Assembly: GCA_951828585.1 (NCBI GenBank)
Contig: OX639991.1
Span: forward strand, 682,001 to 746,000
DNA length: 64,000 bases
Direction: 5' to 3'
Source: Longimicrobiales bacterium
Lineage (GTDB): Bacteria > Gemmatimonadota > Gemmatimonadetes > Longimicrobiales > Gaopeijiaceae
In this document: positions 2,945 through 56,145 of the stretch, piece after piece
Numbering within the stretch: the stretch's first letter is position 1
Layout: every line of letters starts with the position of its first letter
Made by a program: the position numbers and the translations under genes
The notes under the pieces: model-generated
Told to the model about the DNA's origin: nothing
The model's database searches: none
The model's input: only the letters and a program-made list of their open reading frames with translations

Positions 2945-4129
2945 ATGGCGGCAAGGTTCGAAGGAACTGACTTCTACGACATCGACGCGCTCCTGTCCGA
3001 AGAGGAGCGCATGGTCCGCGACACGATCCGCGAATGGGTCGAGGACCGGGTCATCCCGATCATCGGCGACGCGTACGTGGACCGGCGCTTCCCCACGGAA
3101 CTGATCCCCGAAATCGGCGAGCTGGGAATGCTGGGTGCCAACCTCCCGGCCGAGTACGGTTGCGCGGAACTCAACAATGTGTGCTATGGCCTTATCATGC
3201 AGGAGCTTGAACGCGGTGATTCGGGGGTGCGTTCCTTCGTGTCGGTACAGGGCGCGCTTGTCATGTACCCCATCTACGCCTTCGGGAGCGAGGAGCAGAG
3301 GCGCGAGTGGCTTCCGGGGCTCGCTTCCGGGGAGAAGATCGGCTGCTTCGGGCTGACCGAGCCCGACTACGGATCGAATCCGGCCGGCATGATCACGCGG
3401 GCGCGCGAGACGGCGGACGGTTGGGTACTGAACGGGACCAAGATGTGGATCACGAACGGGTCGATGGCGGACGTGGCGGTGGTGTGGGCGCAGACGGGGG
3501 AGGCGGGGGATTCGCGGGGGATTCGCGGGTTCGTGGTTCCGACGGACACGCCGGGGTTCAGCGCCCGCGACCAGAAGGGCAAGCTGTCGCTGCTGGCGTC
3601 GGATACGAGCGAACTGGTACTCGAGGACGTGGAGTTGCCCGCCGATGCGCTGATGCCGGGGACCACCGGGATCAAGAACCCGCTGATGTGCCTGACCCAG
3701 GCGCGCTACGGGATTTCCTGGGGGGCCGTGGGCGCCGCCATGGCGTGCTTCCACGAGGCGGTCAGCTACGCGGGCCAGCGGGTCATGTTCGACGGGGTCA
3801 TTGCGGGCAAGCAGATCCAGCAGGTGAGGATCGCGGACATGCTGACGTGGATTACGCAGGGGCAGCTGCTGTGCCTGCGGCTGGGGCGGCTGAAGGACGA
3901 GGGGAAGATGACGCCGCAGCAGGTCAGCCTGGCGAAGCGGGCGAATGTGAACATGGCGTGCGACATTGCGCGCGAGGCGAGGCGGCTGCTGGGGGCGAAC
4001 GGGATTCTGGCGGAGTACGCGTCCATGCGGCATATGGCGAATCTGGAGTCGGTGTATACCTACGAAGGCACGCACGATGTCCACTCGCTGATCCTGGGGC
4101 ATACGGTTACGGGGATTTCGGCGTTTTAG
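2945..4129 (+). CDS. acyl-CoA dehydrogenase, glutaryl-CoA dehydrogenase-like
   Basis: A 394-aa FAD-dependent acyl-CoA dehydrogenase with all usual parts: a helical N-domain, the FAD/substrate beta-domain (GCFGLTEPDYGSNP, then MWITNGSMADV), and a C-terminal helical domain. The C-terminus TYEGTHDVHSLILG has the catalytic Glu in the position used by glutaryl-CoA dehydrogenase, and the full pattern is closest to that subfamily, which oxidises and decarboxylates glutaryl-CoA to crotonyl-CoA in lysine and tryptophan breakdown. The second ATG (2945) is preferred over 2939 because GGAGAG at 2932-2937 then lies at a normal distance. No electron-transfer flavoprotein genes are adjacent. Confidence 0.88.
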   Translation: MAARFEGTDFYDIDALLSEEERMVRDTIREWVEDRVIPIIGDAYVDRRFPTELIPEIGELGMLGANLPAEYGCAELNNVCYGLIMQELERGDSGVRSFVSVQGALVMYPIYAFGSEEQRREWLPGLASGEKIGCFGLTEPDYGSNPAGMITRARETADGWVLNGTKMWITNGSMADVAVVWAQTGEAGDSRGIRGFVVPTDTPGFSARDQKGKLSLLASDTSELVLEDVELPADALMPGTTGIKNPLMCLTQARYGISWGAVGAAMACFHEAVSYAGQRVMFDGVIAGKQIQQVRIADMLTWITQGQLLCLRLGRLKDEGKMTPQQVSLAKRANVNMACDIAREARRLLGANGILAEYASMRHMANLESVYTYEGTHDVHSLILGHTVTGISAF

Positions 4130-4218: not shown

Positions 4219-5037
4219 ATGCCCGACCGTAGCGCGATCGAATGGACCGATGCGACCTGGAACCCGACGACCGGATGCACCCGAGTGTCGGCCGGGTGCG
4301 ACCACTGCTATGCGGAGCAGCTGTCGAGGCGGTTGCTGTCGACAACCTATCGCGCGCGCCTTCCGGTTGTGGACACGCCGGACAATCGACGAGACCCGTT
4401 CGCGGTGCGGGTGTGGCCCGAGCGGCTATGCGTGCCCGAGTCGTGGAGGGAGCCGCGCCGCGTCTTCGTCAACTCCATGTCGGACCTGTTCCACAACGAG
4501 GTCCCGGAGGACTTCGCCCGCGAGTGCTTCCGGGTGATGCTGGAGGTGGATCGCCATGTCTATCAGGTGTTGACCAAGCGTCCGGCGAGGGCTGCCAGGT
4601 TTGTCAGGCGGCACGCGGACCTGTTTCCGGGGGGGCTCCCGAGTCACATCTGGATCGGGACCTCGGTGGAGGACCAGTCGGTGGACTACCGGGTTCGCCA
4701 CCTATTGGGGGTCCCTGCCGCTGTTCGGTTCCTCAGCTGCGAGCCCCTGATCGGGCCGCTGGATCTGAGCAGGTTCCTCAACGGGGCGCTCGCCTGCGAA
4801 GGGCTTCACTGGGTGATCGTGGGCGGCGAGAGCGGGATCGGTGCCCGACCGATGGATGTGGAATGGGCGCGGGTGGTGCGGGATGAGTGCCGTAGGGCCA
4901 GGGTGCCGTTTTTCTTCAAGCAGTGGGGTGGCCGGACGCCGAAGGCGGGTGGGCGGGTGCTGGATGGGGCGACGTGGGATGAGTATCCGGAGTCGGGATT
5001 GGTTTCGGCCGAGGAGGGGTTGAATGGCCGCGCCTAA
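4219..5037 (+). CDS. DUF5131 (phage Gp37/Gp68 family) three-Cys-motif protein
   Basis: A 272-aa member of the Gp37/Gp68 family. The N-terminus carries IEWTDATWNPTTGC followed by the cluster Cys-x6-Cys-x2-Cys (GCTRVSAGCDHCYAE), similar to but wider than the radical-SAM Cys motif. Later conserved blocks include VFVNSMSDLFH, YQVLTKRP, IWIGTSVEDQ, FLSCEPLIGPL, WVIVGGESG and FFFKQWGG. The family is known mainly from phages and defence or mobile regions and commonly sits beside TcmP, as here. A Shine-Dalgarno GGAGG lies four bases before the ATG. A second copy is at 40683. The chemical reaction is not established. Confidence 0.9.
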   Translation: MPDRSAIEWTDATWNPTTGCTRVSAGCDHCYAEQLSRRLLSTTYRARLPVVDTPDNRRDPFAVRVWPERLCVPESWREPRRVFVNSMSDLFHNEVPEDFARECFRVMLEVDRHVYQVLTKRPARAARFVRRHADLFPGGLPSHIWIGTSVEDQSVDYRVRHLLGVPAAVRFLSCEPLIGPLDLSRFLNGALACEGLHWVIVGGESGIGARPMDVEWARVVRDECRRARVPFFFKQWGGRTPKAGGRVLDGATWDEYPESGLVSAEEGLNGRA

Positions 5038-6139
5038 GGGAACACTGTGGCCGCGCGAACCCCACACGGAAGGCAAGCACCTTGTGCTGGAGAACTACCT
5101 GAAAGCGTGGTTTCCGATTCTTGGCATGGGCGAGAGGAACCGCCGGATTCTCTTCATTGACGGGTTTGCCGGGCCGGGAAAATACGAGGACGGAGCAGAG
5201 GGCTCCCCGGTCGTTGCCATGCGGGTGTTGGCTGAGCATCCCGCCGAGATCAAGGCCGAGGTAGTGTTCTTCTTCATAGAGAGGAAGCGTGATCGGGCTG
5301 ACCACCTGAAGCGTCTGGTCGCGCAGTGGCGTCCAAGGTTGCCCGCGACTGCGAAAATACACGTGCGGGAGGGCTCATTCGATGCCTCCATGACGGACGT
5401 TCTCGACGAGTTGGAGGTACGTGGGCGGAAAATGGCTCCGGCTCTCGTCATGATCGATCCGTTCGGTGTGAAGGGCATGCCGATGTCGGTGATCCGTCGG
5501 ATCATGGCTAACCGGAACTGCGAAGTGTACTTGAGCTTCATGTGGGAGGCGATGAACCGGTTTGTCTCGGAGCCGGAATTCGAGCCTTCGATGGACGAAC
5601 TGTTCGGGTCGCGGGAGTGGCGCAAGGCAAGGAACCTGGCTGGGGGCGAGCGGAGGGCTTCCCTTCACGGTTTGTATCAGAAGCAACTGAGGGAGGCGGG
5701 TGCAAAGCAGGTCGTTCAGTTCCATCTCTTTGCCGGAAATCGACTCAAGTACTCCGTTTTCTTTGGTACACGCCATCCCTTGGGATCGGATCGCATGAAG
5801 CAGGCCATCTGGAAGGTGGCGCCGTTCGGAGACTTCAGCTTTCGCGGCGGAGAGCGGGCTCAGACCAGCTTCCTCGAGCCGGACTTTGCACCCTTGCAGG
5901 AAGCCCTTCAGGAACAATTCGAAGAGGCTGGGTGGGTCTCGATCGAGAAGATCAGCGAGTTCGTGCGATCAGATGCGACGATCTTCCACACCGGGCAGTT
6001 GAGGTTGCAGGCATTGATTCCAATGGAGCGAGCAGGACGAATAGAGGTGAAAGTGAACGACAGGATCCGGAAGAAGGGCTCCAACTACCCGAAGAACTGC
6101 CTGATCAACTTCCGCCCTGAGGCACCTCGTTTCCTGTAA
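5024..6139 (+). CDS. tcmP: three-Cys-motif partner protein TcmP
   Basis: A 371-aa protein whose start overlaps the DUF5131 gene by 14 bases. The N-terminal GTLWPREPHTEGKHLVLENY, then FIDGFAGPGKY and later ALVMIDPFGVKGMP are typical of TcmP. The DGFAGPG and DPFG blocks look like a methyltransferase-type fold (glycine-rich loop, then DPFG), so a SAM-dependent activity is plausible but unproven. The tight pairing with the three-Cys protein is the defining context for this family and suggests the two act as a complex. Codon use is less G/C-biased than the neighbours, consistent with later arrival. Confidence 0.88.
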   Translation: MAAPKGTLWPREPHTEGKHLVLENYLKAWFPILGMGERNRRILFIDGFAGPGKYEDGAEGSPVVAMRVLAEHPAEIKAEVVFFFIERKRDRADHLKRLVAQWRPRLPATAKIHVREGSFDASMTDVLDELEVRGRKMAPALVMIDPFGVKGMPMSVIRRIMANRNCEVYLSFMWEAMNRFVSEPEFEPSMDELFGSREWRKARNLAGGERRASLHGLYQKQLREAGAKQVVQFHLFAGNRLKYSVFFGTRHPLGSDRMKQAIWKVAPFGDFSFRGGERAQTSFLEPDFAPLQEALQEQFEEAGWVSIEKISEFVRSDATIFHTGQLRLQALIPMERAGRIEVKVNDRIRKKGSNYPKNCLINFRPEAPRFL

Positions 6140-11182: not shown

Positions 11183-11460
11183 GGGGCTCCAAAGTACCCA
11201 CGGGGTGGAGGTCGTACAAGCTGGAGTGCGGACCGAGGAGAGACCCTCTCCATCTGATTGCCGGGTTGCCGAGTACGCAATTCCGTGCGGCGCATGGTGC
11301 TAGCAGTTGCTGCCAGCTATCCGGCAGCTGGATTCCAACGCCCGCGAAGTCGGTTGCCACTGGTTGAGCCGTCTGGAGAAAGTCCCAAAACACCATTCCA
11401 GCGACCCGCCCGGGGCGTGAGCTTCGAACCTCAGATTTGACGCAAACCGAGGTCGGAATC

Positions 11461-33536: not shown

Positions 33537-33552
33537 TGAGCGCGGGCATTTC

Positions 33553-35592: not shown

Positions 35593-35654
35593 CCTGGTCA
35601 TATCATCTAGTCAACTCTGGCAGCCCGTGGACAAAATCCCCCCGGCATTCGAGC

Positions 35655-35752
35655 GGCGATGCATCCGCGCTGGCCGCTTCGCTTCGCCTATTTGCACTGT
35701 AAAGACAACATTACATTATGTCATGTATGGTATACTTTCTTCCACCCCGAGG
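35655..35752 (+). repeat. AT-rich promoter-like repeat, copy B
   Basis: Matches 19366-19452 on the opposite strand: GCGGCGATGCATCC, CACTGTAAAGACAACATTAC, ATTATG, then GTATGGTATACTTTCTTCC. Compared with the hairpin repeat at 33667 (which has the same left and right flanks) about 65-75 bases here look like an insertion. Possible promoter for the barrel gene at 35873. Confidence 0.6.
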
Positions 35753-35754
35753 CT

Positions 35755-35870
35755 ACGCTCTGCGTTGCTCCTCGGGCGAATAGCCCTGCTATTCACCTTT
35801 CGTCGCGCCTTGCCAGCCCGGCGCCTCACCGCTTTCGGTGCTCGGGCGGCTTCATCCACGGACTGCTAGC
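35755..35870. repeat. intergenic-type hairpin repeat, copy 2
   Basis: Same as copy 1 with the inverted repeat GAATAGC-CCT-GCTATTC (35778-35794); the loop differs by one base while the stem is unchanged. It ends three bases before the ATG of the barrel gene. Confidence 0.7.
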
Positions 35871-35872
35871 GA

Positions 35873-38157: not shown

Positions 38158-38191
38158 ACATTGTTCGACAATGTTATTGTTCGACAATGTT
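38158..38191. promoter_or_regulatory. twin palindromic operator
   Basis: ATTGTTCGACAATGTT occurs twice in direct succession (38160-38175 and 38176-38191), giving a perfect 16-bp period. The first copy extends to a 7-bp inverted repeat, ACATTGT-TCG-ACAATGT (38158-38174); the second has arms ATTGT/ACAAT. It ends five bases before the -35 box, where a dimeric regulator could block transcription. Confidence 0.65.
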
Positions 38192-39907: not shown

Positions 39908-39927
39908 CGAAAAATACGCTGTAGGAT
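39898..39927 (+). promoter_or_regulatory. candidate promoter for hsdS
   Basis: A perfect TTGACA (39898-39903), then 18 bases and TAGGAT (39922-39927). Transcription would start around 39934, which would make a start at ATG 39971 or 39977 more likely than 39926. Confidence 0.4.
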
Positions 39928-40705
39928 GATGTACAGCGTCAATTATGCGACTGCCAACCTGCCAGTGGACATGCAAATGGGGAAGAAAACGCCCTTGGAA
40001 TCTCAGCGCCCGGTCAGACTGCGCGACATCTGCACGGTCCAGATCGGCTACACTGTCCGCCGGCGAATTAGGCGAACGAAGCAGGACGGCATCCTCACCG
40101 TCCAGCTCCGCGACGTCCCCCCGGGCGGTAGCGTGGATCCCGCGGGCTTGACCCGTCTGCAGGTTGGAGCCGTGCCGGAGCGATATCTGGTCGGCGCGGG
40201 TGATGTCCTCTTCCGCTCCCGGGGTGAGTCGAACACGGCGTGGACGCTTGACGACCGGTTTGAGGAACCTGTCCTGGCGATGCTGCCGTTCTTCATCCTT
40301 CGCCCGAACCGGGATGTCGTGCTGCCCGAGTTCGTAGCCTGGGCGATCAACCAGCCGCGCGCCCAGCGTCACTTCGATCGCTTCGCCCGGGGCACCAACA
40401 TGCGGATGATCCCGCGAGCGGTTCTCACTGACCTCGAGGTCACCTTGCCCGGCCTGGATGTCCAACGCACGGTCGTTGCCCTGGACGCCCTGGCCCGACG
40501 CGAGCGTACGCTGTCCATCCGCGCGGCCGAAAAACGTCGCCGGCTGTACACCCGAATTCTCGAAGACCTCGCAACAGGGCCGGATTCGTCCGGTACCGGG
40601 TTTCCCTTCCTCTGCGACAGTCTTCGGCTTAGTTTCGGTATCCCGAATTCCACGCGAACATCGGCAACACGGAGCATGCCGCATGGGCCAGCGGACATCG
40701 ATTGA
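39926..40705 (+). CDS. hsdS: type I restriction specificity subunit S, half-length
   Basis: Up to 259 aa. PVRLRDICTVQIGYTVRRRI opens a target-recognition domain, followed by FRSRGESNTAWTLDD, LPEFVAWAINQP, GTNMRMIPRAVLTDLEV and LDALARRERTLSIRAAEKRR (the conserved helical spacer). Only one recognition domain and one helix are present, whereas standard HsdS has two of each (about 400 aa); half-subunits are known to act as dimers that read palindromic sites. The last residues overlap the DUF5131 start by 23 bases. The actual start may be ATG 39971 or 39977 (MGKKTPLES). Confidence 0.75.
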   Translation: MMYSVNYATANLPVDMQMGKKTPLESQRPVRLRDICTVQIGYTVRRRIRRTKQDGILTVQLRDVPPGGSVDPAGLTRLQVGAVPERYLVGAGDVLFRSRGESNTAWTLDDRFEEPVLAMLPFFILRPNRDVVLPEFVAWAINQPRAQRHFDRFARGTNMRMIPRAVLTDLEVTLPGLDVQRTVVALDALARRERTLSIRAAEKRRRLYTRILEDLATGPDSSGTGFPFLCDSLRLSFGIPNSTRTSATRSMPHGPADID

Positions 40706-41501
40706 GTGGACCGAGGTCACGTGGAACCCGACGACCGGGTGCACCAAGGTGTCGGAGGGGTGTGACAACTGCTATGCGGAAACGCTGTCCCGGCGGCTGG
40801 TGAGCAGGATCTACCGTCGGCGTTTGCCCGTGGTGAACACTGCGGCCAACCGTGCCGATCCGTTCGCCGTGAGGATCTGGCCGGAGCGGCTGGGCCAGCC
40901 GGCCGGATGGAAGGGGCGGCGCCTCGTGTTCGTCAACTCGATGTCGGACCTGTTCCACTGTGACATCCCCGTGGACTTCCTGCGGGCAATCTTCGAGGTC
41001 ATGCTTGATGTGGACCGGCACACGTACCAGGTGCTGACCAAGCGGCCGAGCCGGGCGGCGCGTTTCGTGCGGGGGAATGGGGACCTGTTCGGCGGGGGAG
41101 GGCTGCCGCCGCATATCTGGATCGGGACGTCGACGGAGAACCAGAAGACGGCGTACAGGATTCGGCATCTGAAGGAGGTTCCGGCGGCGGTGCGGTTCCT
41201 GAGTTGCGAGCCGCTGATCGGGCCGCTGAGCCCGTGCAAGGTGCTGAGCTCGGGGGGGATTCACTGGGTGATCGTGGGGGGGGAGAGTGGGGTGGGGCGG
41301 AGGCCGATGGAGGGGAGGTGGGTGGAGGATCTGAGGGACGAGTGTGTGGCGGCGAATGTGCCGTTTTTCTTCAAGCAGTGGGGAGGGAGGACGCCGAAGG
41401 CGGGGGGGAGGGAGTTGGGGGGGAGGGTGTGGGATGAGATGCCGGGGTGGGGTGGCGAGGGCCCGAACCAGATTCTGGGAACACAGCCAGAATTGAACTG
41501 A
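40683..41501 (+). CDS. DUF5131 (Gp37/Gp68 family) three-Cys-motif protein, second copy
   Basis: 272 aa, exactly the length of the copy at 4219. IEWTEVTWNPTTGC, then the Cys-x6-Cys-x2-Cys cluster GCTKVSEGCDNCYAE, VFVNSMSDLFH, YQVLTKRP, IWIGTSTENQ, FLSCEPLIGPL and FFFKQWGG are all conserved. No TcmP gene follows; instead the interrupted AbiJ-like gene does. Placement between hsdS and hsdM suggests a defence or DNA-modification role. The last 200 bases are almost pure purine with long G runs. Confidence 0.88.
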   Translation: MGQRTSIEWTEVTWNPTTGCTKVSEGCDNCYAETLSRRLVSRIYRRRLPVVNTAANRADPFAVRIWPERLGQPAGWKGRRLVFVNSMSDLFHCDIPVDFLRAIFEVMLDVDRHTYQVLTKRPSRAARFVRGNGDLFGGGGLPPHIWIGTSTENQKTAYRIRHLKEVPAAVRFLSCEPLIGPLSPCKVLSSGGIHWVIVGGESGVGRRPMEGRWVEDLRDECVAANVPFFFKQWGGRTPKAGGRELGGRVWDEMPGWGGEGPNQILGTQPELN

Positions 41502-41775
41502 GGCGACACGATGGACTACAGCCCGTACCAAGACTTGCCGACATTCTCTCAGCGAACCGGAATTCGAGAGATTCCCGGGCCTCCGCGATTGGACGAGATC
41601 AGTGAGCGGGCGCGGAACGAGATCTGGGATACCCTGTGGAAACGGCTGCAAGCCCAGACGAAGGTTGGCCGCGACCAACTCCTCTCCCTCTCTGCCAACA
41701 CACGCGAGACACGAGAGGAGAAAGAGATTAGAGTAGGGCGAGGCAGAGAGTTGAACGATGGCACGAGGAGAAGGA

Positions 41776-42207
41776 ATGAAGGTGAACGGAACGCCCCTCT
41801 CCACGGGGGAGGGCAAGCGAAGCGCGGCAGCCCGGCCGGATCCGGAGGTTGCGGCGAAGACGACGCGGCGGCGGTTCACGGCGGCGTACAAGCTTTCGAT
41901 CGTGGAGAAGGCGGACGCCTGCGATACACCGGGCGAGATCGGAGAGCTGCTTCGGCGCGAAGGACTGTATAGTTCGCACTTGTCGTCGTGGCGGAAGGCG
42001 GCGCGGGAAGGGTCGCTGCGGAGGCTGGCGAAGAAGCGAGGCCCGAGGCCGTCCGGCGGGAAGCGTGAGGCGAAGAGGGTGCGGAAGCTGGAGCGGGAGA
42101 ACGCGCGGTTGCGCGAGGAACTTCGCAAGGCGCGCATCATCATCGATGTCCAGGGAAAAGTTGCGGGGCTGCTGGGTGTGAGCCCCGGGGACGGGAAGCG
42201 CTCTTGA
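41776..42207 (+). CDS. IS3-family transposase OrfA
   Basis: 143 aa. Starts at ATG 41776 with AGGAG five bases upstream (ATG 41758 possible). Helix-turn-helix of the IS3 OrfA type: RRRFTAAYKLSIVEKADAC and LLRREGLYSSHLSSWRKAA, then a leucine-zipper helix KRVRKLERENARLREELRKA that mediates dimerisation and joining to OrfB. Ends in TGA overlapping the TTG of orfB. Binds the element ends. Confidence 0.88.
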   Translation: MKVNGTPLSTGEGKRSAAARPDPEVAAKTTRRRFTAAYKLSIVEKADACDTPGEIGELLRREGLYSSHLSSWRKAAREGSLRRLAKKRGPRPSGGKREAKRVRKLERENARLREELRKARIIIDVQGKVAGLLGVSPGDGKRS

Positions 42208-43241
42208 GCGCGGCCAGAGGCTTGGCCGGGCACGTGGGCGTACGCGCGGCGTGCAAAGCCCTCGGGGTTGCGCGCGCCACGTTCTACCGTCGCCGGAGGC
42301 CGAAGACCGGGCAGTGGCAGCCCCGGCCGGCTCCTGCCCGGGCCCTGGACGCGACGGAGCGGGCGGGGGTCTTTGGTGTGCTGTGCTCGCCGCGCTTCGC
42401 GGACCGTGCTCCCGCGGAAGTGTACGCGACGCTGCTGGACGAGGGCGTCTATCTGTGTTCGGAGCGGACGATGTACCGCGTCCTGGCCGAGAATCAGGCG
42501 GTCCGCGAGCGCCGGGCGCAACGTAGCCATCCCAACCACCCGAAGCCCGAGGTGGTGGCCAGGGCACCCAACGAGGTGTGGTCCTGGGACATCACCCGGC
42601 TGCTGGGGCCGGAGAAGTGGCAGTACTTCTATCTGTACGTGATCCTGGACATCTACAGCCGCTACGCCGCCGGATGGATGGTGGCGGAGCGCGAGACCGC
42701 CGGCTTGGCCGGACACTTGATCGGGGAGACATGCCTCAAGCACGGTGTGCAGCCCCGGGTGCTCACGCTGCACTCGGACCGGGGATCTCCCATGACGGCC
42801 AAGTGCACGGCGCAGCTCCTGGCCGACCTGGGCGTCACCCAGTCGCTGGGCCGCCCCAGGGTCTCGAACGACAACCCTTACTCGGAGGCGCACTTCAAGA
42901 CCGTCAAGTACCATCCGGGCTTCCCGGGTCGCTTCGGCAACATCGAGGAGGCGAAGGACTTCTGCCGGGAGTTCTTCCAGTGGTACAACACCGAGCACCG
43001 GCACGGCGGCATCGGCTTGCTGACGCCGGAACAGGTCCATCTCGGCCGCGCCCCCGCGGTCATCGAGCACAGACAGAAGGTGCTGGCTGCGGCCTACGCC
43101 GCCCGGCCCGACCGCTTTGTCGGTGGCCCGCCGAGAGCTGCGGAACTCCCGGTGGAGGTCTGGATCAACCGCGCACTCCCCGTCACGGCAGCCGATGGAG
43201 CAGAGCCGGCCAACGGGGGAAAGGAGGGCTCACTAAACTGA
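42204..43241 (+). CDS. IS3-family transposase OrfB (DDE integrase)
   Basis: 345 aa. N-terminal ACKALGVARATFYRRR helix-turn-helix, then the rve integrase core: first Asp in EVWSWDITRL, second Asp in LTLHSDRGSPMT, Glu in DNPYSEAHFKT, followed by FFQWYNTEHRHGGIG. Complete and with all three catalytic residues, so the element may still be active. The TTG start overlaps the orfA stop, with coupling or frameshifting expected. Confidence 0.92.
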   Translation: MSAARGLAGHVGVRAACKALGVARATFYRRRRPKTGQWQPRPAPARALDATERAGVFGVLCSPRFADRAPAEVYATLLDEGVYLCSERTMYRVLAENQAVRERRAQRSHPNHPKPEVVARAPNEVWSWDITRLLGPEKWQYFYLYVILDIYSRYAAGWMVAERETAGLAGHLIGETCLKHGVQPRVLTLHSDRGSPMTAKCTAQLLADLGVTQSLGRPRVSNDNPYSEAHFKTVKYHPGFPGRFGNIEEAKDFCREFFQWYNTEHRHGGIGLLTPEQVHLGRAPAVIEHRQKVLAAAYAARPDRFVGGPPRAAELPVEVWINRALPVTAADGAEPANGGKEGSLN

Positions 43242-43984
43242 ATCGGAAAGTGTCTCAACGTCGTTGGCAGGTTCCGCTTACCCTGGCGAGAGATGTTCGT
43301 ACACGTGCATCGAGAACTGCTCGTCTCGCCGCTAGAGGATTTCAGCACGTCGGCATCAGACTGGATAGATAAGTGTCGGGGCTTCCTGCTCAAGGGCTCA
43401 TATTCCGAGTGCTTCGATCTTCTGGAGTTGCTCATGCGACACCCGAAATGCCCGATCGAATTTACTGAGGAGATCAAGGACATCTTCCACCACCGGTTGG
43501 CCTACCGGATCGATACGAGCTCGATCCCCACGATCGTCCCGGCAGCAACCGCACAGGAAGGCGACGCCCTGGTCGGGGCGATTCAGGACCTTGAAGGCGG
43601 TGGGTTGGGGGGCGCGGCAGAGCATCTGCGGCAGGCAGGTGAGCGCATCCTCGATGAGGACTGGGCCGGGAGTGTTCGTGCGAGCATTGATGCTGTCGAG
43701 TCTGTGGCGAAGCAGGTTGCTCCTGGTAGCGCCGGGACGCTGCCCAAGGCGCTAGCTGCGTTGGAACGACGGTCGGGTATCCATCCAGCCCTGAAGAAGG
43801 GTCTGAATAGGCTGTATGACTACACTTCCGACGAACCCGGCGTCCGCCACGCCTTGCTGGACGATGAATCGAAGGTCACCCAAGACGAAGCCATCTTCAT
43901 GATCGGAGCCTGCGCCGCATTCTGCAGCTACCTCTGGCGAAAGTTCGGTCCCCAAGGCGCCTCGTCACCCACTCAGCCGCACCC

Positions 43985-45496
43985 ATGACCCAAACCCAGG
44001 ACCAGGTCAACCAGACCGCGTGGGCCGCCTGCGACACCTTCCGCGGCGGCGTCGACGCCGGCCAGTACAAGGACTACATCCTCGTGATGCTGTTCCTGAA
44101 GTACATCTCGGACCTCTGGGACGACCACGTGGAGACCTACCGGAAGCGGTATCGCGGCGACGAGGCCCGCATCCGCCGCCGCCTCGAGCGCGAGCGCTTC
44201 GTCCTCCCCGAGAGCGCCCGTTTCCAGACCCTCTACGAGCAGCGCAACGAGCCCAACATCGGCGAACTCATCAACATCGCGCTGGAGAGGATCGAGGACA
44301 GGAACCGCGCCAAGCTCGAAGGGGTCTTCCGGAACATCGACTTCAATTCGGAGGCGAATCTCGGCCGGACCAAGGACCGCAACCGCCGCCTCAAGAACCT
44401 CCTGGAGGACTTCGCCAAGCCCGCCCTCGACCTGCGTCCGTCCAGGGTCACGGGCGACATCATCGGCGAGTGCTACATCTACCTCATCTCGCGCTTCGCC
44501 TCGGACGCCGGGAAGAAGGCGGGGGAGTTCTACACGCCGTCCGCCGTCTCCCGCCTGCTCGCCAAACTGGCCGCCCCGAAGGACGGCGACACGATCTGTG
44601 ATCCGGCGTGCGGCTCGGGCTCCCTGCTGATCCGCGCGGTCGAGGAGGTCGGGTCGAAGAACTTCTCCCTCTACGGGCAGGAGGCAAACGGAGCGACATG
44701 GGCGCTGGCCCGTATGAACATGTTCCTGCATGCGAAGGACGCGGCTCGCATCGACTGGTGCAACACGCTGACCGGCCCCACCCTGATCGAGGACGACCGG
44801 CTCAAGACCTTCGACATCGTGGTCGCCAACCCGCCCTTCTCGCTCAAGAAATGGGGTGCCGAGAACGCGGCCAACGACCCCTACGACCGCTTCTGGCGCG
44901 GCGTTCCCCCGCCCTCGAAGGGTGACTACGCCTTCATCACCCACATGATAGAAATCGCTGAGCGGCGTAGCGGGCGCGTCGCGGTGATCGTCCCCCACGG
45001 TGTGCTCTTCCGGGGCCATCGCGAGGGCCGCATCCGGAAGGCGCTGATCGAGGAGAACCTCCTGGACGCGGTGATCGGTCTGCCCGCGAAGCTCTTCACG
45101 ACCACCGGCATCCCCGTCGCGATCCTGGTCCTCGACCGGTCCCGCGAGCAGGGCGGTGCGAACGAGGACCGCCTCGACGTGCTCTTCATCGACGCGAGCA
45201 AGGAGTTCACGCCCGGCAAGAAGCAGAACGCGATGGAGGAGGAGCACATCGCGAAGGTGGTCGAGACCTGGCGGAATCGGGAGACGGTCGAGCGGTACTC
45301 CCACGTCGCGACGCCCGACGAGATCGTGGAAAACGACTACAACCTGAACATCCCGCGTTACGTGGATACGTTCGAGCCGGAGGAGGAGATCGACATCGCC
45401 GAGGTGCAGCGGGAGATCGACGGGATCGAGGCGGAGCTGGTGGAGGTGAGGGCGAAGATGAGGGGGTATTTGCGGGAGTTGGGGGTGGAGGTGTGA
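43985..45496 (+). CDS. hsdM: type I restriction-modification DNA methyltransferase subunit M
   Basis: 503 aa. N-terminal helical domain (DYILVMLFLKYISDLW), then GEFYTPSAVSRLLAKL, SAM loop DPACGSGSLL (about residues 206-215) and catalytic NPPF (about 282-285), the set that makes N6-methyladenine. Ends with a coiled-coil helix (IAEVQREIDGIEAELVEV) used to bind HsdS. Complete and normal length. Its start overlaps the AbiJ-like gene. Works with the HsdS at 39926 and HsdR at 58297. Confidence 0.93.
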   Translation: MTQTQDQVNQTAWAACDTFRGGVDAGQYKDYILVMLFLKYISDLWDDHVETYRKRYRGDEARIRRRLERERFVLPESARFQTLYEQRNEPNIGELINIALERIEDRNRAKLEGVFRNIDFNSEANLGRTKDRNRRLKNLLEDFAKPALDLRPSRVTGDIIGECYIYLISRFASDAGKKAGEFYTPSAVSRLLAKLAAPKDGDTICDPACGSGSLLIRAVEEVGSKNFSLYGQEANGATWALARMNMFLHAKDAARIDWCNTLTGPTLIEDDRLKTFDIVVANPPFSLKKWGAENAANDPYDRFWRGVPPPSKGDYAFITHMIEIAERRSGRVAVIVPHGVLFRGHREGRIRKALIEENLLDAVIGLPAKLFTTTGIPVAILVLDRSREQGGANEDRLDVLFIDASKEFTPGKKQNAMEEEHIAKVVETWRNRETVERYSHVATPDEIVENDYNLNIPRYVDTFEPEEEIDIAEVQREIDGIEAELVEVRAKMRGYLRELGVEV

Positions 45497-45616
45497 GCTG
45501 AACAGGTTCGAATCCGCGACGAGTCGTTGGATAGGCTTCATGCTATCGTTACCTTTTCGGGATGGGACGACGGAAGATGGCCGCCGGGGCTTCGAACGAA
45601 TCTGGAGGACGTAGAC

Positions 45617-46975
45617 ATGCCTGATCCTAGTGTGGTGCGGAAGAGGTTGCATAGTATCGCCGCTGAACTCGAGGCGACTGGAACCTCACGACGGACGAGC
45701 GTCCGCAACCTGCTATCGTGGTTCGACTTCCAACGACGAGGGGAATGGGTCGTCTATACCGTGCGGCAGGCTCTCCAGGAAGCCGGCCTTCGGACCAAGC
45801 CCGATTTCGCTGATGTCGACGATGTGGGCTTCGACTCCTTCGTGGAGTTCGAGTTGGATCCCTCCGAGAACGCCCGCCAGGATGGCCAACCGGAACGGCA
45901 AGAGGAGGTGGACGGCGAGACTGAGCCAGACGGCCTCGACACGACTGCTCCATGGATAGACTATCCCCTTGATGGATTGTTGATTCGAAGCGAGACGCGC
46001 ACCGTGCATGGTGTTTTTCGGTGGATAGAAAAAGGATTCTACGTGATGAATCCCGATTTCCAGCGCGACTTTATATGGAAGATTGACAAGCAGAGCAGAC
46101 TTATCGAATCAGTCATCATGCGAATTCCCCTTCCGGTGTTCTATCTTGCAGAAGATGACGAAGGCAAGATGATCGTCGTAGATGGGCTTCAGCGACTGTC
46201 TACGTTCCAGAGATTCCTCAACAATGACCTGCGACTGCGGCTTCCGAACCAGGAGGAACTACACGGCAAGAGGTTCTCGGATTTGGGTCCGAAACTGCAG
46301 AACCGAATTGAAGATTGCAACCTTACCTTCTACATAATGGATGCAAACGTCCCAGAGAGAGCCCGCCTCGATATCTTTGAGCGAGTCAACGCTGGCGAGC
46401 CTCTTAGCAGGCAGCAAATGCGCAATTGTCTATATAATGGCAAAGCGACTGTTTTCCTGCGAGACGAGGCGCACTCGGACCTGTTTCGAAAGGCTACAGG
46501 AGGGAGTCTACGATCCGACACAATGCGAGATCGTGAGTTTGTGAATCGGTTTTGCGCTTTTCAGGTCCTGGGTGTGAACCGTTATCGCGGCGACATGGAC
46601 CAATTCTTGGCCGATGCCTTACGCACGATGAATTGCATGCAGGATAGTGAGATCGTCGAACTCCGGCGCGCCTTTCACCGGACGCTCCGAAACAACTACA
46701 ATATCTTCGGGAAGCACGCTTTTCGGAAGCAGCGCCGTGGAGTAGCCAGGCGTAGCGTGATCAATGCGGCATTGTGGGATGTAATGGCAACGGGTCTCTC
46801 ACGCCACGATGAAGACTACATAGGCTCCATTGGCGATGACCTTAAGGTAGCTTTCCTGGAGTTGCTTGACAACGAAGAATTCCAGACAGCAGTGACGCTG
46901 TCGACCAATGACGACAAGAGAGTGAGGGTCAGGTTCGAAATGGCGCGGCATATGTTCGAGGAGGTGCTTGGGTGA
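45617..46975 (+). CDS. DUF262 (GmrSD/ParB-like) domain protein
   Basis: 452 aa from ATG 45617 with GGAGG eight bases before; a longer frame upstream lacks support. The first 110 residues look like a DNA-binding or linker region (SWFDFQRRGEWVVYTVRQAL). The DUF262 domain then has NPDFQRDFIWKIDKQSRLIE and VVDGLQRLSTF (about residues 189-198), the ParB/Srx-like nucleotide-binding motif seen in GmrS of type IV restriction enzymes. The second HNH domain (DUF1524) of GmrSD is not visible. Overlaps the following ATPase gene. AT content is clearly higher than in neighbours. Confidence 0.82.
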   Translation: MPDPSVVRKRLHSIAAELEATGTSRRTSVRNLLSWFDFQRRGEWVVYTVRQALQEAGLRTKPDFADVDDVGFDSFVEFELDPSENARQDGQPERQEEVDGETEPDGLDTTAPWIDYPLDGLLIRSETRTVHGVFRWIEKGFYVMNPDFQRDFIWKIDKQSRLIESVIMRIPLPVFYLAEDDEGKMIVVDGLQRLSTFQRFLNNDLRLRLPNQEELHGKRFSDLGPKLQNRIEDCNLTFYIMDANVPERARLDIFERVNAGEPLSRQQMRNCLYNGKATVFLRDEAHSDLFRKATGGSLRSDTMRDREFVNRFCAFQVLGVNRYRGDMDQFLADALRTMNCMQDSEIVELRRAFHRTLRNNYNIFGKHAFRKQRRGVARRSVINAALWDVMATGLSRHDEDYIGSIGDDLKVAFLELLDNEEFQTAVTLSTNDDKRVRVRFEMARHMFEEVLG

Positions 46976-48111
46976 TTACTCGGCTTGACCTTCGGCATTT
47001 CAAGTGCTTTAGGGAACTGAAACTTCCCCTTGGTTCGCTGACGCTGCTATCGGGGGCGAATGCGTCCGGCAAGTCCTCGGTTCTGCATGCGCTGGGGCTG
47101 CTACAGCAGACGATACGCGAGCACGAGTGGTCGACACGCCTGATACTGAACGGGGTTTCGGCGCGGCTGGGTGTAGTGTCGGACGTGGTAGACCAGGTCT
47201 ACGGGCGGCGGGAGTGTGAGATTGGCTTGGTGTATTCGGACCGTGAGTATCGATGGCGATTTCGTGGGGAACGCTCGGAGATGGCCATGGAAGTTGCATC
47301 CGTCCGGGCGAAAGGTGAGGAAATCGACGAGCCGAAGGTGCTACGGCGCCTGATGCCCGTTCATATCGACGACGATCGGTTGGCGAAACACCTTGAGAGC
47401 CTGACATACCTTACGGCAGAGCGGATGGGGCCGAGGGAGGTCTACCAGTTGGACGATCCGCAGGTCGCCCCAGTTGTTGGGCCGACCGGAGAGGATGCTG
47501 TCAGCGTTCTCCACCTGGGTCGCGACGAGATGGTACTTCCTGCGTTGCGACTTGCTGGTCGCCCGCCTACGAGGTGGTGGCAGGTGACGGCACGGATGGA
47601 GAACTTTTTCCCGGGGTGCGGACTGTCGATCGAAGCAATCCCGCACGCCAACGCTGTTACACTTGGGCTCCGCACTTCCGCGAGCACGGAATTCCATCGT
47701 CCGATCAACACAGGGTTTGGCCTGACGCAGATCCTGCCATTGATCGTCGCCTCGATCTCTGCGAAAGAGGATGACATGCTGCTGATCGAGAATCCAGAGG
47801 TCCATCTTCATCCTGCAGGCCAAGCGGCGATGGGCGAGTATTTGGTCGAAGTTGCGGCTGCGGGAATTCAGGTACTCATCGAGACTCACAGCGATCACAT
47901 CCTGAACGGTGTTAGGCGGGCGGTGAAGAACGGAGTGCACCCGCCAGATGACGTGCTCCTTCACTTTTTCCGGCCGCGGGATGAGTCGGAGGGGGGTGGG
48001 AGACCGCAGGTCGAGAGCCCGGCCATCGACGCGGCAGGGAACGTGGATGCCTGGCCGGAGGGTTTCTTCGACCAGTTCGACAAGGACACTAGCTTCTTCG
48101 CTGGTTGGTGA
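46972..48111 (+). CDS. AAA family ATPase with DUF3696
   Basis: 379 aa from GTG overlapping the previous stop. MITRLDLRHFKCFRELKLPL, Walker A SGANASGKSS (about 27-36), NTGFGLTQILPLIVASI (signature-like), Walker B LLIENPEVHLHP (about residue 270), LIETHSDHILNGVRRAV (switch His) and a C-terminal DUF3696 tail (FFRPRDESEGG; GFFDQFDKD). These ATPases act in defence modules. Paired with DUF262 it recalls the Menshen defence system, by memory only. Confidence 0.85.
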   Translation: MITRLDLRHFKCFRELKLPLGSLTLLSGANASGKSSVLHALGLLQQTIREHEWSTRLILNGVSARLGVVSDVVDQVYGRRECEIGLVYSDREYRWRFRGERSEMAMEVASVRAKGEEIDEPKVLRRLMPVHIDDDRLAKHLESLTYLTAERMGPREVYQLDDPQVAPVVGPTGEDAVSVLHLGRDEMVLPALRLAGRPPTRWWQVTARMENFFPGCGLSIEAIPHANAVTLGLRTSASTEFHRPINTGFGLTQILPLIVASISAKEDDMLLIENPEVHLHPAGQAAMGEYLVEVAAAGIQVLIETHSDHILNGVRRAVKNGVHPPDDVLLHFFRPRDESEGGGRPQVESPAIDAAGNVDAWPEGFFDQFDKDTSFFAGW

Positions 48112-49079
48112 TCGAATTGGAGATCTTCCTCAACAACCAGTCTCTCCACGGGCAGTTCCGTAGCGGCGCGGCCTTCCGGGCGGCCCTCGACCGGGTCATG
48201 GCCATGCGGCGTGTGGCGCGGCAATTCGAGCGGGACATCCACTGTGACGGAGGGATCCTGAGTCGAGACGCGTCACCGGACGACCCGGTGCAGAATGCGA
48301 TTGCTTGGCTCTCGCCGGACCAAAGGCGTGCAGCAATGCAATGGTGGACCCGCGGCGGCCCGTTTTGGGATGCCGATCGCCGACACGGCGTCGACGACTG
48401 GTTCGAGTGCCAAGGCGAGATCGTTACGGACGATGCGCTCGGTGAGGCGGCCTACCGCAAGGCGTTGGGTCTCGAATGCGACACAGTCAGCTTCACGCCC
48501 TCGGACTGGACTCACTCGCCCTTGATGGTGCGTTGGCGGCGCAACGAGGGGTTCACAGACCTTCGCCTCGCCCTAGAGAACTACTGGGAAGAGGCGGACC
48601 TTCGGGCGCGACTGCGGAGCGTGGAGCCGCCGATCTCCTCGTGGAGCCAACTCCGGGAATGGTCGGAGAGGCACTTTGCGAACCTGCGTTTTGGCCCGGA
48701 GTGCTTCCGTCCGCTGCGCGGTCTTCCGTTTTCCAATGCCGGAGCGACGAGAATCCGTGCGCTGCTTAGCATTCTCGATCAGTTTGCGGTCGCGTTCGAG
48801 CCGGACGGTCGTCGGAGCGTCGAAGGTCAGAGGATGTTTCAAGACTACTTCACCGGCAGGGATGGGAGCGAGCTGTTCTCCGATTCTTCCGACAGAGAAA
48901 AGAGCCGCTTCGCGAAGCACCTGAGGTTCCCGCATCCAGACAAGCCGAATGAGACGATTCCATGTACCTGGCACGGGAAGGTGAGCCACATGTTCCTGAG
49001 AGTCCATTTCTCGTGGCCGGTTCGAGCAGGCAAACCGGTGTACGTGATGTACATCGGCCAGAAGATCACTCGCCGATGA
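48108..49079 (+). CDS. unknown third protein of the DUF262/DUF3696 set
   Basis: 323 aa from GTG, overlapping the ATPase stop. Not recognised. Visible features: LEIFLNNQSLHGQF and LDRVMAMRRVARQFERDI at the start, a Trp-rich middle (QWWTRGGPFWDADRRHGVDDW; WRRNEGFTDLRLALENYWEE), and a conserved-looking end (CTWHGKVSHMFLRVHFSWP, then KPVYVMYIGQKITRR). No membrane segment or known nuclease motif. Its fixed place after the ATPase makes it the likely effector or substrate-sensing partner. Overlaps the next small gene by four bases. Confidence 0.65.
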   Translation: MIELEIFLNNQSLHGQFRSGAAFRAALDRVMAMRRVARQFERDIHCDGGILSRDASPDDPVQNAIAWLSPDQRRAAMQWWTRGGPFWDADRRHGVDDWFECQGEIVTDDALGEAAYRKALGLECDTVSFTPSDWTHSPLMVRWRRNEGFTDLRLALENYWEEADLRARLRSVEPPISSWSQLREWSERHFANLRFGPECFRPLRGLPFSNAGATRIRALLSILDQFAVAFEPDGRRSVEGQRMFQDYFTGRDGSELFSDSSDREKSRFAKHLRFPHPDKPNETIPCTWHGKVSHMFLRVHFSWPVRAGKPVYVMYIGQKITRR

Positions 49080-49372
49080 AAAAGACAACTACAGTTGACC
49101 AAATGTTATCTGCGCTTGACACTGTCGAGCAAACAGCCAGCGGATTAGCCCGCCTTGGGGTAGAGGCGAGAAGGGCTAGGGTGCGGCCCGTAAGGGACCA
49201 AGAAGGGACCAAGAAGGGACCAAGTCGGCACCAAGCGGGGATTCTTCGTAAGTCCTTGTCCGCGCGGCTCATCGCGCAACTCGCCGGGGTGGTGGGGAAA
49301 GAGGAACGCACCAGGGTCAGGCACCAGCTTCTTAGACCACCGTTGGGTCTCGAAGGGATCGTGAACCCATGA
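49076..49372 (+). CDS. 98-aa basic protein between two defence modules
   Basis: Begins MKKTTTVDQMLSALDTVEQT and overlaps its neighbours on both sides with ATGA. Very basic (RRARVRPVRDQ; RHQAGILRKSLSARL). A three-copy 11-bp repeat (49194-49226) reads through all three frames. Not recognised; a DNA- or RNA-binding accessory of either the DUF262 set or the type ISP enzyme is possible, as is a gene remnant. Confidence 0.5.
   Translation: MKKTTTVDQMLSALDTVEQTASGLARLGVEARRARVRPVRDQEGTKKGPSRHQAGILRKSLSARLIAQLAGVVGKEERTRVRHQLLRPPLGLEGIVNP
49194..49226 (+). repeat. 11-bp tandem repeat, three copies
   Basis: GGGACCAAGAA repeats at 49194, 49205 and 49216 (last copy diverging). As 11 is not a multiple of three, each copy is read in a different frame within the 98-aa gene. 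Copy-number changes would switch the gene on or off. Confidence 0.7.
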
Positions 49373-52300
49373 GCACCACCGGATTCCAGCGCGCCCTCAA
49401 CCACATCCGTTCCGTTTCTGAGATCGAAGCCCAGAAGGGCCGTCTGTTCGAACGGCTCATGCAGGCGTACTTCCGCGAGGATCCGCTGTACCTGGAGCGG
49501 TTTACCCAGGTATGGCTCTGGAAGGAGTGGGTTCCGCGGTTCAACGAGGAGGAGACCCGCCAGGCCGCCCAGCGCCCGGAGTCCGCGTCGCCCCTGCGGT
49601 TCGACCTGAACGACACCGGCATCGACCTCGTGGCCCGGGAGCGCGATGGAGGCTGGTGCGCGATCCAGTGCAAGTGCTACGCACCGGGAACGCGACTCGC
49701 CAAGAAGCACCTCGACTCCTTTGTCTCGGCCTCGGCTCGCGACCCCTTCACCTCCCGCATCTTCGTAGACACCGGAGACAGCTGGGGCCCGAACGCCCTC
49801 AAAACTCTTCGTGGCCTGAAGCCCGCCTGCATCGTACTCCGCTTCGGCGATCTGGCCAGCCGCCCGTTCGACTGGCCGGATCTGGTGTCGCGGGACCCCG
49901 AGGACCTCCGCTACGTCGGCGAGCCGTTCGAGCTGCGGCCCCACCAGCGCGAGGCACTGGACGATGTGCTGGCGGGATTCCGGGACCACGACCGCGGCAA
50001 ACTCATCATGGCCTGCGGTACGGGAAAGACCTTCACTGCCCTCCGCATTGCCGAGGCGGTCGCGAAGACCGGAGGCCGCGTTCTCTACCTGGTGCCGTCG
50101 ATCTCTCTCTTTGCGCAGTCGATGCGCGAGTGGGCGACCCAGAAGGCGCTTCCGCACCGCTACGTCGGGATCTGTTCGGACACGCGCGCGGGTCGGCACG
50201 ACGAGGACGCCTCGCTACTCGAGCTGGAAATCCCCGTCACCACCGATCCGGCCCGCATCTCGGCGGCGCTGCGAGAGACCCGCCCCGGCTTCATGACGGT
50301 CGTCTTCTGCACCTACCACTCCCTTCCCATCGTCGAGAGTGCCCACGAAGCAGGAGCGCCGCCCTTCGACCTCGTCCTCTGCGACGAGGCCCATCGCACC
50401 ACCGGGGTCGACCGCCCCGGCGACCGCACCTCCCCCTTCGTGCGCGTCCACGACGGCGAGCGCATCCAAGCGCGCAAGCGTCTGTACATGACCGCGACCC
50501 CGCGCATCTACACGGAGAGCTCGAAGTCAAAGGCAGCGCGGCACGATGTGGATGTCTTCTCGATGGACGAGGAGGCCACGTACGGCCCCGAGTTCCATCG
50601 CCTCCCGTTCTCCCGCGCCATCGAGCGCAACCTGCTCTCGGACTACCAGGTGGTGATCTTCACCGTGGCCGAGTCCGGGGTGGAGCCCACGCTTCAGGCG
50701 CATTTGGGCCAGAGCCGCAGCAGTGAGATCAACATCACCGACGCGGCCAAGATCGTCGGTTGCTGGCGTGCCCTCCAGGGGCGGAGGGTTGGACGTAGAG
50801 AAGCCGGGCCGCCAGACCCGAAGGCAGATCGGGGTCGGCACACGAACGGCGCTCCGGCGGGCGGCGAGACCTCTCGTCCGCTCGTCCGCGCCATCGCCTT
50901 TGCCAACACCATCCGGGACTCGAAGCGGCTGGAGGCGCATTGGGACCGTGTGGTCCAGGAGGCCGTCGCGATGCTTCCGGAGGAAAGGCGCGAGGGAGCG
51001 TTGCGGTGCTCGACCCTGCATGTGGACGGACAGCACAACGCGCTTGAGCGCAAGGGACGCATCGACTGGCTCAAGGGCAGGGAGGACGGCGTCTGCCGCA
51101 TCCTGAGCAACGCCCGGTGCCTCTCCGAGGGCGTCGATGTCCCCGCCCTCGACGCCGTCTTCTTCATGGCGGCGCGCAAGTCGCCGGTCGAGATAGTGCA
51201 GGCGGTCGGACGCGTCATGCGGAAGGCGGCGGGGAAGAAGTATGGCTACATCGTGCTGCCTGTTGCGATCCCGCCGGGGGTCGCCCCCGAAAAGGCGCTG
51301 AACGACAACAAGCGCTTCGGCACCGTGTGGGGGGTTCTCCGCGCGCTCCGGTCCCACGACGACCGCTTCGACGCCGAGATCAACCGCATCGACCTGAACG
51401 AGCGGAAGCCGGACCGGATCATCGTTGACGGCGACATCGACCCCGGTGGGGACGACCAGTTGCCCTTCGACTTTCCGCCCCTCGACCTCTCTCCCGACGC
51501 CATCTACGCCAGGATCGTCGAAAGGTGCGGAGACCGAAAGTACTGGGAGACCTGGGCCAAGGACATTGCCGACATCTTCGCCCGTCTGGTCGAGCGGATC
51601 GGCCGACTGCTCGAGAATCCGGCCAACGAGGCGCTACTGGAGTGGTTCGAGGGCTTCCACGAGGAGTTGCGCGGCTCGATAAACGAGTCGTTGACGGAAG
51701 ACGCGGCCATCGACATGATCGCGCAGCACATCCTCACCGTGCCCGTCTTCGAAGCGCTCTTCGAGGGGTACGACTTCGCGAGCGGCAACCCCATCGCGAC
51801 AGCCCTGGACGAACTCCGGCGCGATTTCGGAGAGTTTGGTCTGGAGAACGAGATCCGCGACATGGCCCCGTTCTACGAGAGCGTCCGCCGACGGGCACGG
51901 GGCCTCGATAACAGCGCCGCCCGACAACAGGTGCTCAAGGAGCTCTACGAGCACTTTTTCCGTGTGGCGCTCAAGAGGCAGGCGGAACGGCTTGGGATTG
52001 TGTACACGCCGACCGAGGTGGTGGATTTCATTCTGCGCAGCGCCGACCATGTTCTGCGCGAAGAGTTTGGCCGGGGGCTCACCGCCGCCGGAGTCCATGT
52101 CCTCGACCCCTTCACGGGAACCGGCATCTTCCTGGCTCGTCTGCTCCAGCTGGGGCTGGTGGAGGAATCCGACTTGAAACGCAAGTTCCGTGGCGAGCTC
52201 CATGCGAACGAGGTGGTGTTGCTCGCGTACTACATCGCGGCGGTGAACATCGAAGAGGCGTACCGGGGGCGGCGCGGGACGGATGCCGCCTACGAACCCT

Positions 52301-54261: not shown

Positions 54262-54266
54262 CCGCC

Positions 54267-56138: not shown

Positions 56139-56145
56139 GACACCC

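Follow-up and report, generated by a model that had tools for sequence, protein, structure and literature searches.

Two DUF5131 genes in a Longimicrobiales genome: an intact pair with TcmP and an old, separate copy in a type I restriction locus that may have lost its TcmP partner

Why does the genome of a Longimicrobiales bacterium (assembly GCA_951828585.1) carry two genes of the DUF5131 family, one followed by a gene for the protein TcmP and the other apparently orphaned among the genes of a type I restriction-modification system? Both genes are located in a stretch of 64,000 nucleotides (contig OX639991.1, positions 682,001 to 746,000), the whole of which is referred to here as the window. 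A first-pass annotation of the window had proposed that both DUF5131 proteins are served by a single TcmP or else that the orphan acts together with the restriction system. The explanation that we consider best, with a probability of roughly one in two, is that the two genes are old and separate copies, that the orphan belongs to a lineage whose own TcmP was displaced, and that DUF5131 is the radical S-adenosylmethionine (SAM) partner in a candidate defence pair. The three genes in question are the following (aa, amino acids):

4219..5037, plus strand: DUF5131 copy 1, a radical-SAM-like protein of 272 aa (Pfam, PADLOC, trees)
5024..6139, plus strand: TcmP, 371 aa, with a RlmJ-like methyltransferase fold (TIGR04474, PDC-M30A, predicted fold)
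40683..41501, plus strand: DUF5131 copy 2, the 'orphan', 272 aa (Pfam, PADLOC, trees)

The first-pass description of two 272-aa DUF5131 proteins with the same cysteine spacing was borne out by matches to PF07505 (299.4 bits for copy 1 and 294.6 bits for copy 2, cut-off 28.9) and by an identical Cx6Cx2C arrangement, which reads CTRVSAGCDHC in copy 1 and CTKVSEGCDNC in copy 2. The proteins are 67% identical (174/261) and the genes 70% identical (563/805 aligned bases). Searches of the whole genome, a single contig of 4.47 Mb, detected two DUF5131 copies and one TcmP gene, so that tcmP indeed accompanies the copy at 4219 only. This gene overlaps copy 1 by 14 bp and its product matches TIGR04474 with 193.6 bits. 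Copy 1 and TcmP represent an intact pair of the type named PDC-M30 by PADLOC, the genes being adjacent and TcmP matching the A profile with 180.3 bits. No TcmP was present within 3.5 kb of copy 2 in the window, and the A partner of PDC-M41 is thus absent there. Copy 2 does lie between hsdS and hsdM, with an additional PDC-S32 gene intervening before hsdM.

The descent of the two copies was analyzed with a larger tree of 69 proteins, drawn from 129 of near-full length (the complete Gemmatimonadota set of 54 plus every fifth of the other 75), and with a careful tree of 34 rows picked by hand from those 69. In the 34-row tree, copy 1 belongs to a clade of ten rows and copy 2 to a clade of seven, each with a support of 100/98, and these clades are sisters (95/94); the 69-protein tree also separates the copies. 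A recent duplication was rejected, as a tree joining both window copies gave a p value of 2e-8 in the approximately unbiased test. On this phylogenetic evidence both copies belong to one enzyme family and have long been separate. The first-pass annotation had named a recent duplicate of copy 1 with no independent association as the outcome that would speak against its proposals; the separate, supported clades and a gene order hsdS-DUF5131-X-hsdM that recurs in related genomes, X denoting a variable slot, show a different picture.

The TcmP partners follow the same division. All six TcmP proteins tested from the clade of copy 1 were typed as PDC-M30A (window, L129, L133, L127, L196, L140) and all four from the clade of copy 2 as PDC-M41A (L139, L142, L032, L138), with PADLOC as the only typing tool, our own M30 and M41 profiles being left unused as they were built from some of the proteins to be typed. 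The proposal that the TcmP of copy 1 serves both DUF5131 proteins agrees with the presence of just one TcmP gene in the genome and is nevertheless disfavoured by these different partner subfamilies and by the same-genus genome G017, which keeps an intact orthologue of copy 2 while no TcmP was found in its assembly (86% complete); we therefore regard it as very unlikely.

The genes around copy 2 are arranged as follows:

39926..40705, plus strand: HsdS of half size, 259 aa, overlapping copy 2 by 23 bp (PADLOC Specificity_I, 64.8 bits; purifying selection)
41511..41685, plus strand: 5' fragment of a PDC-S32 (AbiJ_NTD4) gene, in the slot that holds TcmP in genome G007 (PADLOC, relatives)
41686..43276, strand not given: insertion element (IS), presumably of the IS3 type, with HTH_Tnp_1 and rve transposase reading frames
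43277..43988, plus strand: 3' fragment of the PDC-S32 gene (open frame called from 43293)
43985..45496, plus strand: HsdM, type I methyltransferase (N6_Mtase, HsdM_N, TIGR00497, PADLOC)
45527..57393, plus strand: defence-type genes between hsdM and hsdR (GmrSD_N, AAA, IIG-like, AAA, Schlafen AlbA_2)
58309..61266, plus strand: HsdR, 985 aa (HSDR_N, SWI2_SNF2; gene call)

The locus contains hsdS, hsdM and hsdR, as in type I restriction-modification, with an HsdS that corresponds to about one target-recognition domain rather than two (259 aa, best profile 208 positions). The HsdS calls rest on PADLOC, since a profile of our own gave 135 matches, including fused DUF5131 frames, and was dropped. 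The gene between copy 2 and hsdM had been overlooked by the first-pass annotation; its 3' fragment matches PDC-S32 with 151.6 bits and AbiJ_NTD4 with 21.4 bits, the latter under the cut-off of 34. The interrupting element of 1591 bp is one of six genomic copies with 100% identity (as printed), which indicates recent activity.

Three genomes of the same genus, namely that of the window, G017 and G007, share the order hsdS-DUF5131-X-hsdM-...-hsdR. Slot X is occupied in G007 (L139) by TcmP, which overlaps DUF5131 by 4 nt and matches PDC-M41 A with 232.7 bits (PADLOC), in G017 (L135) by an intact PDC-S32 gene located 15 nt after DUF5131, and in the window by the PDC-S32 gene broken by the IS; G015 has a decayed version of the region without X. 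Homology between the window and G007 ends near the end of DUF5131 and restarts at the start of hsdM. The synonymous divergence (dS) between these two genomes is similar for hsdS (0.32), copy 2 (0.26) and hsdM (0.30), and the X genes are unrelated, which argues that the flanks descended together and X was exchanged. Between the window and G017 the corresponding values are uneven (0.80 for hsdS, 0.52 for copy 2, 0.36 for hsdM, 1.08 for PDC-S32), a pattern suggestive of recombination. For a clade uniting the DUF5131 proteins of the window and G017, the two with PDC-S32 beside them, the test was marginal (p 0.033), and no conclusion is based on it. Copy 2 is intact and under purifying selection, with a ratio of non-synonymous to synonymous divergence (dN/dS) of 0.13-0.15, and HsdS of the window is under purifying selection as well. 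The best reading of these comparisons is that the 'orphan' is a DUF5131 gene whose lineage had a TcmP of its own, which would have been displaced from the slot now taken by PDC-S32.

Copy 1 is flanked by the following gene:

2945..4129, plus strand: gene that we take to be acyl-CoA dehydrogenase-like (gene call; blastn synteny with G007, G015, G003 and G022)

Beside this gene, G007 carries the whole hsd-DUF5131 locus in place of copy 1 and tcmP, the decayed hsd-DUF5131 locus of G015 likewise adjoins its counterpart, and G003 and G022 have a DUF5131 gene of the copy 1 type without TcmP at that site.

The type I locus might also be a recombination hotspot that collects defence genes, with copy 2 as functionless cargo in a decaying locus. 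Variable genes in the hsdM-hsdR interval, the IS-broken partner gene, the decayed version in G015 and an HsdR shorter than that of G017 are consistent with this view, which we consider unlikely in light of the purifying selection on an intact copy 2. Conversely, copy 2 might be tied to the type I enzyme in the manner of PrrC, as an embedded effector that is held silent and released when the restriction enzyme is blocked. The gene of the PrrC effector is embedded in the type I operon EcoprrI (available text of PMC3874165). The 23-bp overlap of hsdS and DUF5131 is conserved in the window, G007 and G017, and hsdS, copy 2 and hsdM diverge together between the window and G007. Moreover, the order hsdM'-hsdS-DUF5131-TcmP is found in G057 (L128) and hsdM-DUF5131-TcmP in L069 (Acidimicrobiaceae), separate neighbourhoods which show that the pair has entered type I loci repeatedly. 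Against such a tie, the hsdM gene of G057 is a fragment of 174 aa, no DUF5131 was found at seven loci encoding HsdM proteins of about 40% identity (L245-L251) in the stretches examined, several of which are cut by contig ends, and an HsdM-family reading frame lies within 8 kb in only 23 of 136 DUF5131 loci (the two pieces of L147 being counted apart). PrrC is an anticodon nuclease, and family searches showed no such domain in DUF5131 or TcmP. A PrrC-like role is regarded as improbable.

With respect to the first-pass proposal of a joint action of the orphan and the restriction system, the embedding and the co-divergence speak for it and the seven HsdM loci without DUF5131 against it; recurrence of DUF5131 beside hsdS or hsdM was seen in G007, G017, the decayed G015, G057 and L069, so that the link amounts to one lineage and two further cases. 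A general pairing of HsdM with DUF5131 is therefore unsupported, and the N6_Mtase count in 59 relatives was taken as a rough background from which no enrichment is claimed. PDC-S32 as a general partner of DUF5131 is likewise unsupported, as its loci in seven other genomes (L238-L244, some short or at contig ends) are without DUF5131. In one of these, L243 (4716-7048, G014:C35), a second and unrelated locus, a PDC-S32-like gene directly follows a gene for an HsdM-like protein with 29% identity to HsdM of the window.

The association of TcmP with its neighbour proved to be one-way. Starting from DUF5131, TcmP was found within 3.5 kb in 117 of 143 entries, a number in which some contigs are counted twice and whose 26 entries without TcmP include the contig-end cases L052 and L053. 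Starting from TcmP, 54 of 395 Gemmatimonadota genomes gave 57 rows, two of which are pieces of one gene in G336, hence 56 genes. A DUF5131 gene adjoins 51 of them, 38 according to loci or coordinates and 13 according to a separate neighbourhood check. Four others are too close to a contig end (G015:C64, G008:C78, G226:C144 and G345:C3), and no DUF5131 occurs in their available sequence. The remaining TcmP, of genome G161 (72.7 bits), has no DUF5131 above the cut-off in its 12-kb contig. The reading frame directly after it (L297, 4132-4947) encodes a radical-SAM protein that matches PF04055 with 39.4 bits (cut-off 29.5) and PF07505 below the cut-off (21.7 bits, E 1.6e-4); its match to the model of spore photoproduct lyase is not significant (11.2 bits, E 0.16). 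The cysteines of its CxxxCxxC motif align with the Cx6Cx2C of the DUF5131 profile (E 6e-5, 41 columns) with a three-residue insert. A radical-SAM-type neighbour thus accompanies 52 of 52 assessable TcmP genes, 51 with DUF5131 and the one of G161. By sequence the G161 protein may be a bridge between DUF5131 and the radical-SAM superfamily, and the finding of a radical-SAM gene beside TcmP raised the odds that DUF5131 is itself such an enzyme.

The converse dependence is lacking. No TcmP was detected in the assemblies of G003, G006, G017, G022, G040, G044 and G047, all of which contain DUF5131 and of which G044 is a single contig. The dN/dS ratio of TcmP-less DUF5131 pairs is 0.137 for G044 and G047 and 0.092 for G003 and G022; DUF5131 persists under purifying selection without TcmP. 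As separate observations, the TcmP-less DUF5131 genes L035 and L120 of the copy 1 clade, from genomes of one and two contigs, lie downstream of large genes of the N6-methyltransferase type, and two further TcmP-less cases in Gemmatimonadota (L132, 8332-10365; L148, 5342-7399) stand beside short phage-like genes, perhaps of a prophage, with neighbours that look methyltransferase-like and ASCH-like by eye.

The canonical radical-SAM spacing is CxxxCxxC, and other spacings occur in the superfamily. Both window copies depart from the canonical form with Cx6Cx2C; all 56 aligned relatives have C20, C27 and C30 and the Tyr-Ala that comes next, so that the shared spacing is not due to chance. An AlphaFold2 model based on the 56-sequence alignment reached a mean predicted local distance difference test score (pLDDT) of 83.6 and a predicted template modelling score of 0.83. 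The top match of this model in VIA-align was spore photoproduct lyase (Z 13.5 over 199 residues, at 3.0 A and 12-14% identity), followed by viperin-like enzymes, SuiB and RlmN at Z of about 11; the first 27 rows are radical-SAM enzymes, and the first other fold appears at Z 8.8. Additionally, the NCBIfam model TIGR04471 (radical SAM mobile pair A) matches DUF5131 with an E value of 1.4e-9. According to the predicted structure, DUF5131 is very probably a radical-SAM enzyme whose cluster motif carries a three-residue insert and whose barrel is nearest to that of spore photoproduct lyase. That it acts on nucleic acid also appears probable, at a lower level of confidence.

The predicted model of TcmP (pLDDT 93.3) matches best the fold of RlmJ, the 23S rRNA A2030-N6 methyltransferase, with Z 17.1 against at most 14.7 for general methyltransferases in the same list, and RlmJ is also the best PDB sequence match of the TcmP profile (E 0.0056, over motif I, which both have in common). 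Unlike RlmJ, most TcmP proteins are without a DPPY-type motif: [DN]PP[YFW] is absent from 108 of 110, and ordinary N6-adenine methylation is therefore not to be assumed. A simple DPxG pattern is present in 66 of 110 proteins, and at E <= 1 a match to the GMT-wHTH domain was obtained for 18 of 54.

Mobile elements repeat this distribution. DUF5131 was detected in 159 of 50,697 phage records and in 375 of 72,556 plasmid records. TcmP was found in eight phage records with the window protein as query and in five with the G007 protein, together representing nine distinct phages, all of which have an adjacent DUF5131 gene (seven inspected and profile-checked, two by coordinates). In six Gordonia phages inspected, the pair adjoins the immunity repressor, with an integrase in the stretch shown in five of the six. 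Six phage DUF5131 genes without TcmP were inspected over 4-5 kb per side; the TcmP profile found nothing in these stretches, and every one of them contains a gene for replication or recombination:

first phage gene: SSB, processivity factor and dNMP (deoxynucleoside monophosphate) phosphatase nearby
second: RecE, RecT, DNA methyltransferase and RepA nearby
third: sliding clamp at a distance of 2.5 kb
fourth: RecT, RusA and DnaQ nearby
fifth: RecT nearby
sixth: exonuclease VIII, Erf, SSB and dNMP phosphatase nearby

In the explanation that we propose, DUF5131 would be a radical-SAM enzyme that works on nucleic acids and is self-sufficient, TcmP would depend on it for an antidote or a licence, and the two would form a candidate defence system lodged in a restriction locus. 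As an antidote, DUF5131 would reverse or pre-empt a modification by which TcmP marks or damages nucleic acid; as a licence, it would make the substrate on which TcmP then acts. We tentatively suggest, at less than even odds, that in an anti-phage pair TcmP does the harm or sets the mark and DUF5131 makes it safe. The more specific notion that DUF5131 removes a TcmP-placed lesion or mark by radical chemistry like that of spore photoproduct lyase would have to be called doubtful. The antidote model would account for the radical-SAM partner that TcmP requires, for the solo DUF5131 genes of phages and for the retention of the 'orphan' after its effector had been replaced, and the repair-enzyme fold along with the TcmP-less phage copies slightly favours it over the licence model.

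Alternatively, DUF5131 might be the writer of a modification-based defence that modifies host or phage DNA or RNA, with TcmP methylating or reading the product; solo phage copies would then modify phage DNA to escape restriction. The methyltransferase fold of TcmP and its radical-SAM partner fit this explanation, as do the TcmP-less phage copies near replication and recombination genes, with a DNA methyltransferase in three of the six stretches inspected. The nearest fold, however, is that of a repair enzyme, and a writer role is likewise given less than even odds.

Several observations weigh against the explanation preferred here, namely old separate copies, a displaced TcmP and a radical-SAM partner in a candidate defence pair. 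The licence model predicts the same dependence of TcmP on DUF5131, and divergent TcmP proteins may escape the two query proteins used. A Foldseek search with the DUF5131 model gave no match at E <= 0.001, its top-ranked hit being a non-SAM TIM barrel, and Pfam radical-SAM models including PF04055 matched none of the 56 DUF5131 members at E <= 1. The DUF5131 profile matches no PDB sequence, and a comparison of DUF5131 with solved chains by sequence gave nothing significant, with one chance match at E 0.57. The match to TIGR04471 amounts to 37.8 bits, far under the cut-off of 355. The PADLOC B profiles fail to separate the copies, M41B being best for both copy 1 (291.8 bits vs 283.3 for M30B) and copy 2 (300.8 vs 291.0), so that the M30/M41 assignment rests on the TcmP partners. 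DUF5131 beside PDC-S32 is confined to one operon lineage, in which PDC-S32 may be mere cargo, and the phage stretches inspected are a small share of the 159 records.

Comparison with known systems places the finding between several precedents. PADLOC lists TcmP with DUF5131 as the candidates PDC-M30 and PDC-M41; copy 1 and TcmP match the corresponding profiles, and copy 2 matches the B profile of PDC-M41, whose A partner accompanies the G007 orthologue. In contrast to these candidates, copy 2 is without an A gene and resides in a type I operon with PDC-S32 in the slot. The cluster motif of spore photoproduct lyase, a radical-SAM DNA repair enzyme, is CxxxCxxC. This enzyme, the nearest solved fold, shares with DUF5131 a three-cysteine cluster followed by Tyr and differs from it in motif spacing. 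The G161 protein resembles DUF5131 in its position beside TcmP, its frame of 272 residues and its aligned cysteines, and differs in its CxxxCxxC motif and its sub-cut-off score to PF07505. DarTG2 works by ADP-ribosylation and its removal. A DarTG2 toxin-antitoxin pair is embedded between hsdS and hsdR of a type I system in the RRDM island, according to the available part of PMC12255303, and is like the present case in being a pair among type I hsd genes, its proteins being unrelated to DUF5131 and TcmP. With DarTG2 and PrrC, embedding in type I loci has tested precedents.

The pair is already known as the PADLOC candidate PDC-M30/M41 and has been counted in surveys: in the text available, PMC10855318 reports 32 P. 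aeruginosa strains with a predicted PDC-M30, of which 68.8% were resistant, and PMC11878078 also counts the TcmP-DUF5131 candidate system. The present analysis adds the displacement of the partner in the hsd operon, the dependence of TcmP on its neighbour in one direction only, the radical-SAM stand-in of G161 and the fold assignments. A full-text search of a paper library returned no paper with the word DUF5131, the full name of TcmP occurred in two papers, each time as a table entry, and searches for the PDC names, GMT-wHTH, Gp37/Gp68, radical SAM with defence and hsd hotspots yielded no study that we recognised as a functional analysis of the pair.

Further features were noted in the window. 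The cargo at 45527-57393 is dense, with an NsnA-profile GmrSD_N gene, a 1630-aa IIG-like restriction-methylase, AAA_21 and Schlafen AlbA_2; the hsdM-hsdR interval of G007 contains a TIR-like gene and others. At 985 aa, HsdR of the window is shorter than that of G017 (1122 aa); by blastn comparison with G007 and G017, the window gene would have lost 282 and 117 bp in two in-frame deletions, one of them near the end of the helicase domain. A 97-bp element on the hsdR side of the locus (62643-62739), considered as a possible module boundary, is conserved in G007 (96%) and G017 (89%), has a second copy in the genome 3.6 kb further and also occurs in G005 and G009. Upstream of hsdS, positions 38161-39435 hold an AAA_21 ATPase gene (AbiLi and AriA-type profiles) and a small reading frame, preceded by a run of mutually similar genes (31353-38092: 31353-33536, 33886-35592 and 35873-38092), the middle one of which seems broken up. 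The reading frame 11437-12093 contains tandem repeats of the type ELKGDIAELRT, likely forming a coiled coil.

DUF5131 occurs on plasmids, phages and chromosomes, and yet its name is absent from the literature searched. If the antidote model holds true, the pair would defend the cell as a toxin and its antidote, in the way of DarTG and with radical chemistry; the solo DUF5131 genes of phages would be counter-defence, and the orphan in the restriction operon would confer lasting immunity, next to which one effector could be swapped for another. By means of the one-way dependence, the G161 stand-in and the partner swap, an unnamed candidate system becomes directly and cheaply testable, and the finding suggests an anti-virus module of exchangeable parts that is little understood so far.

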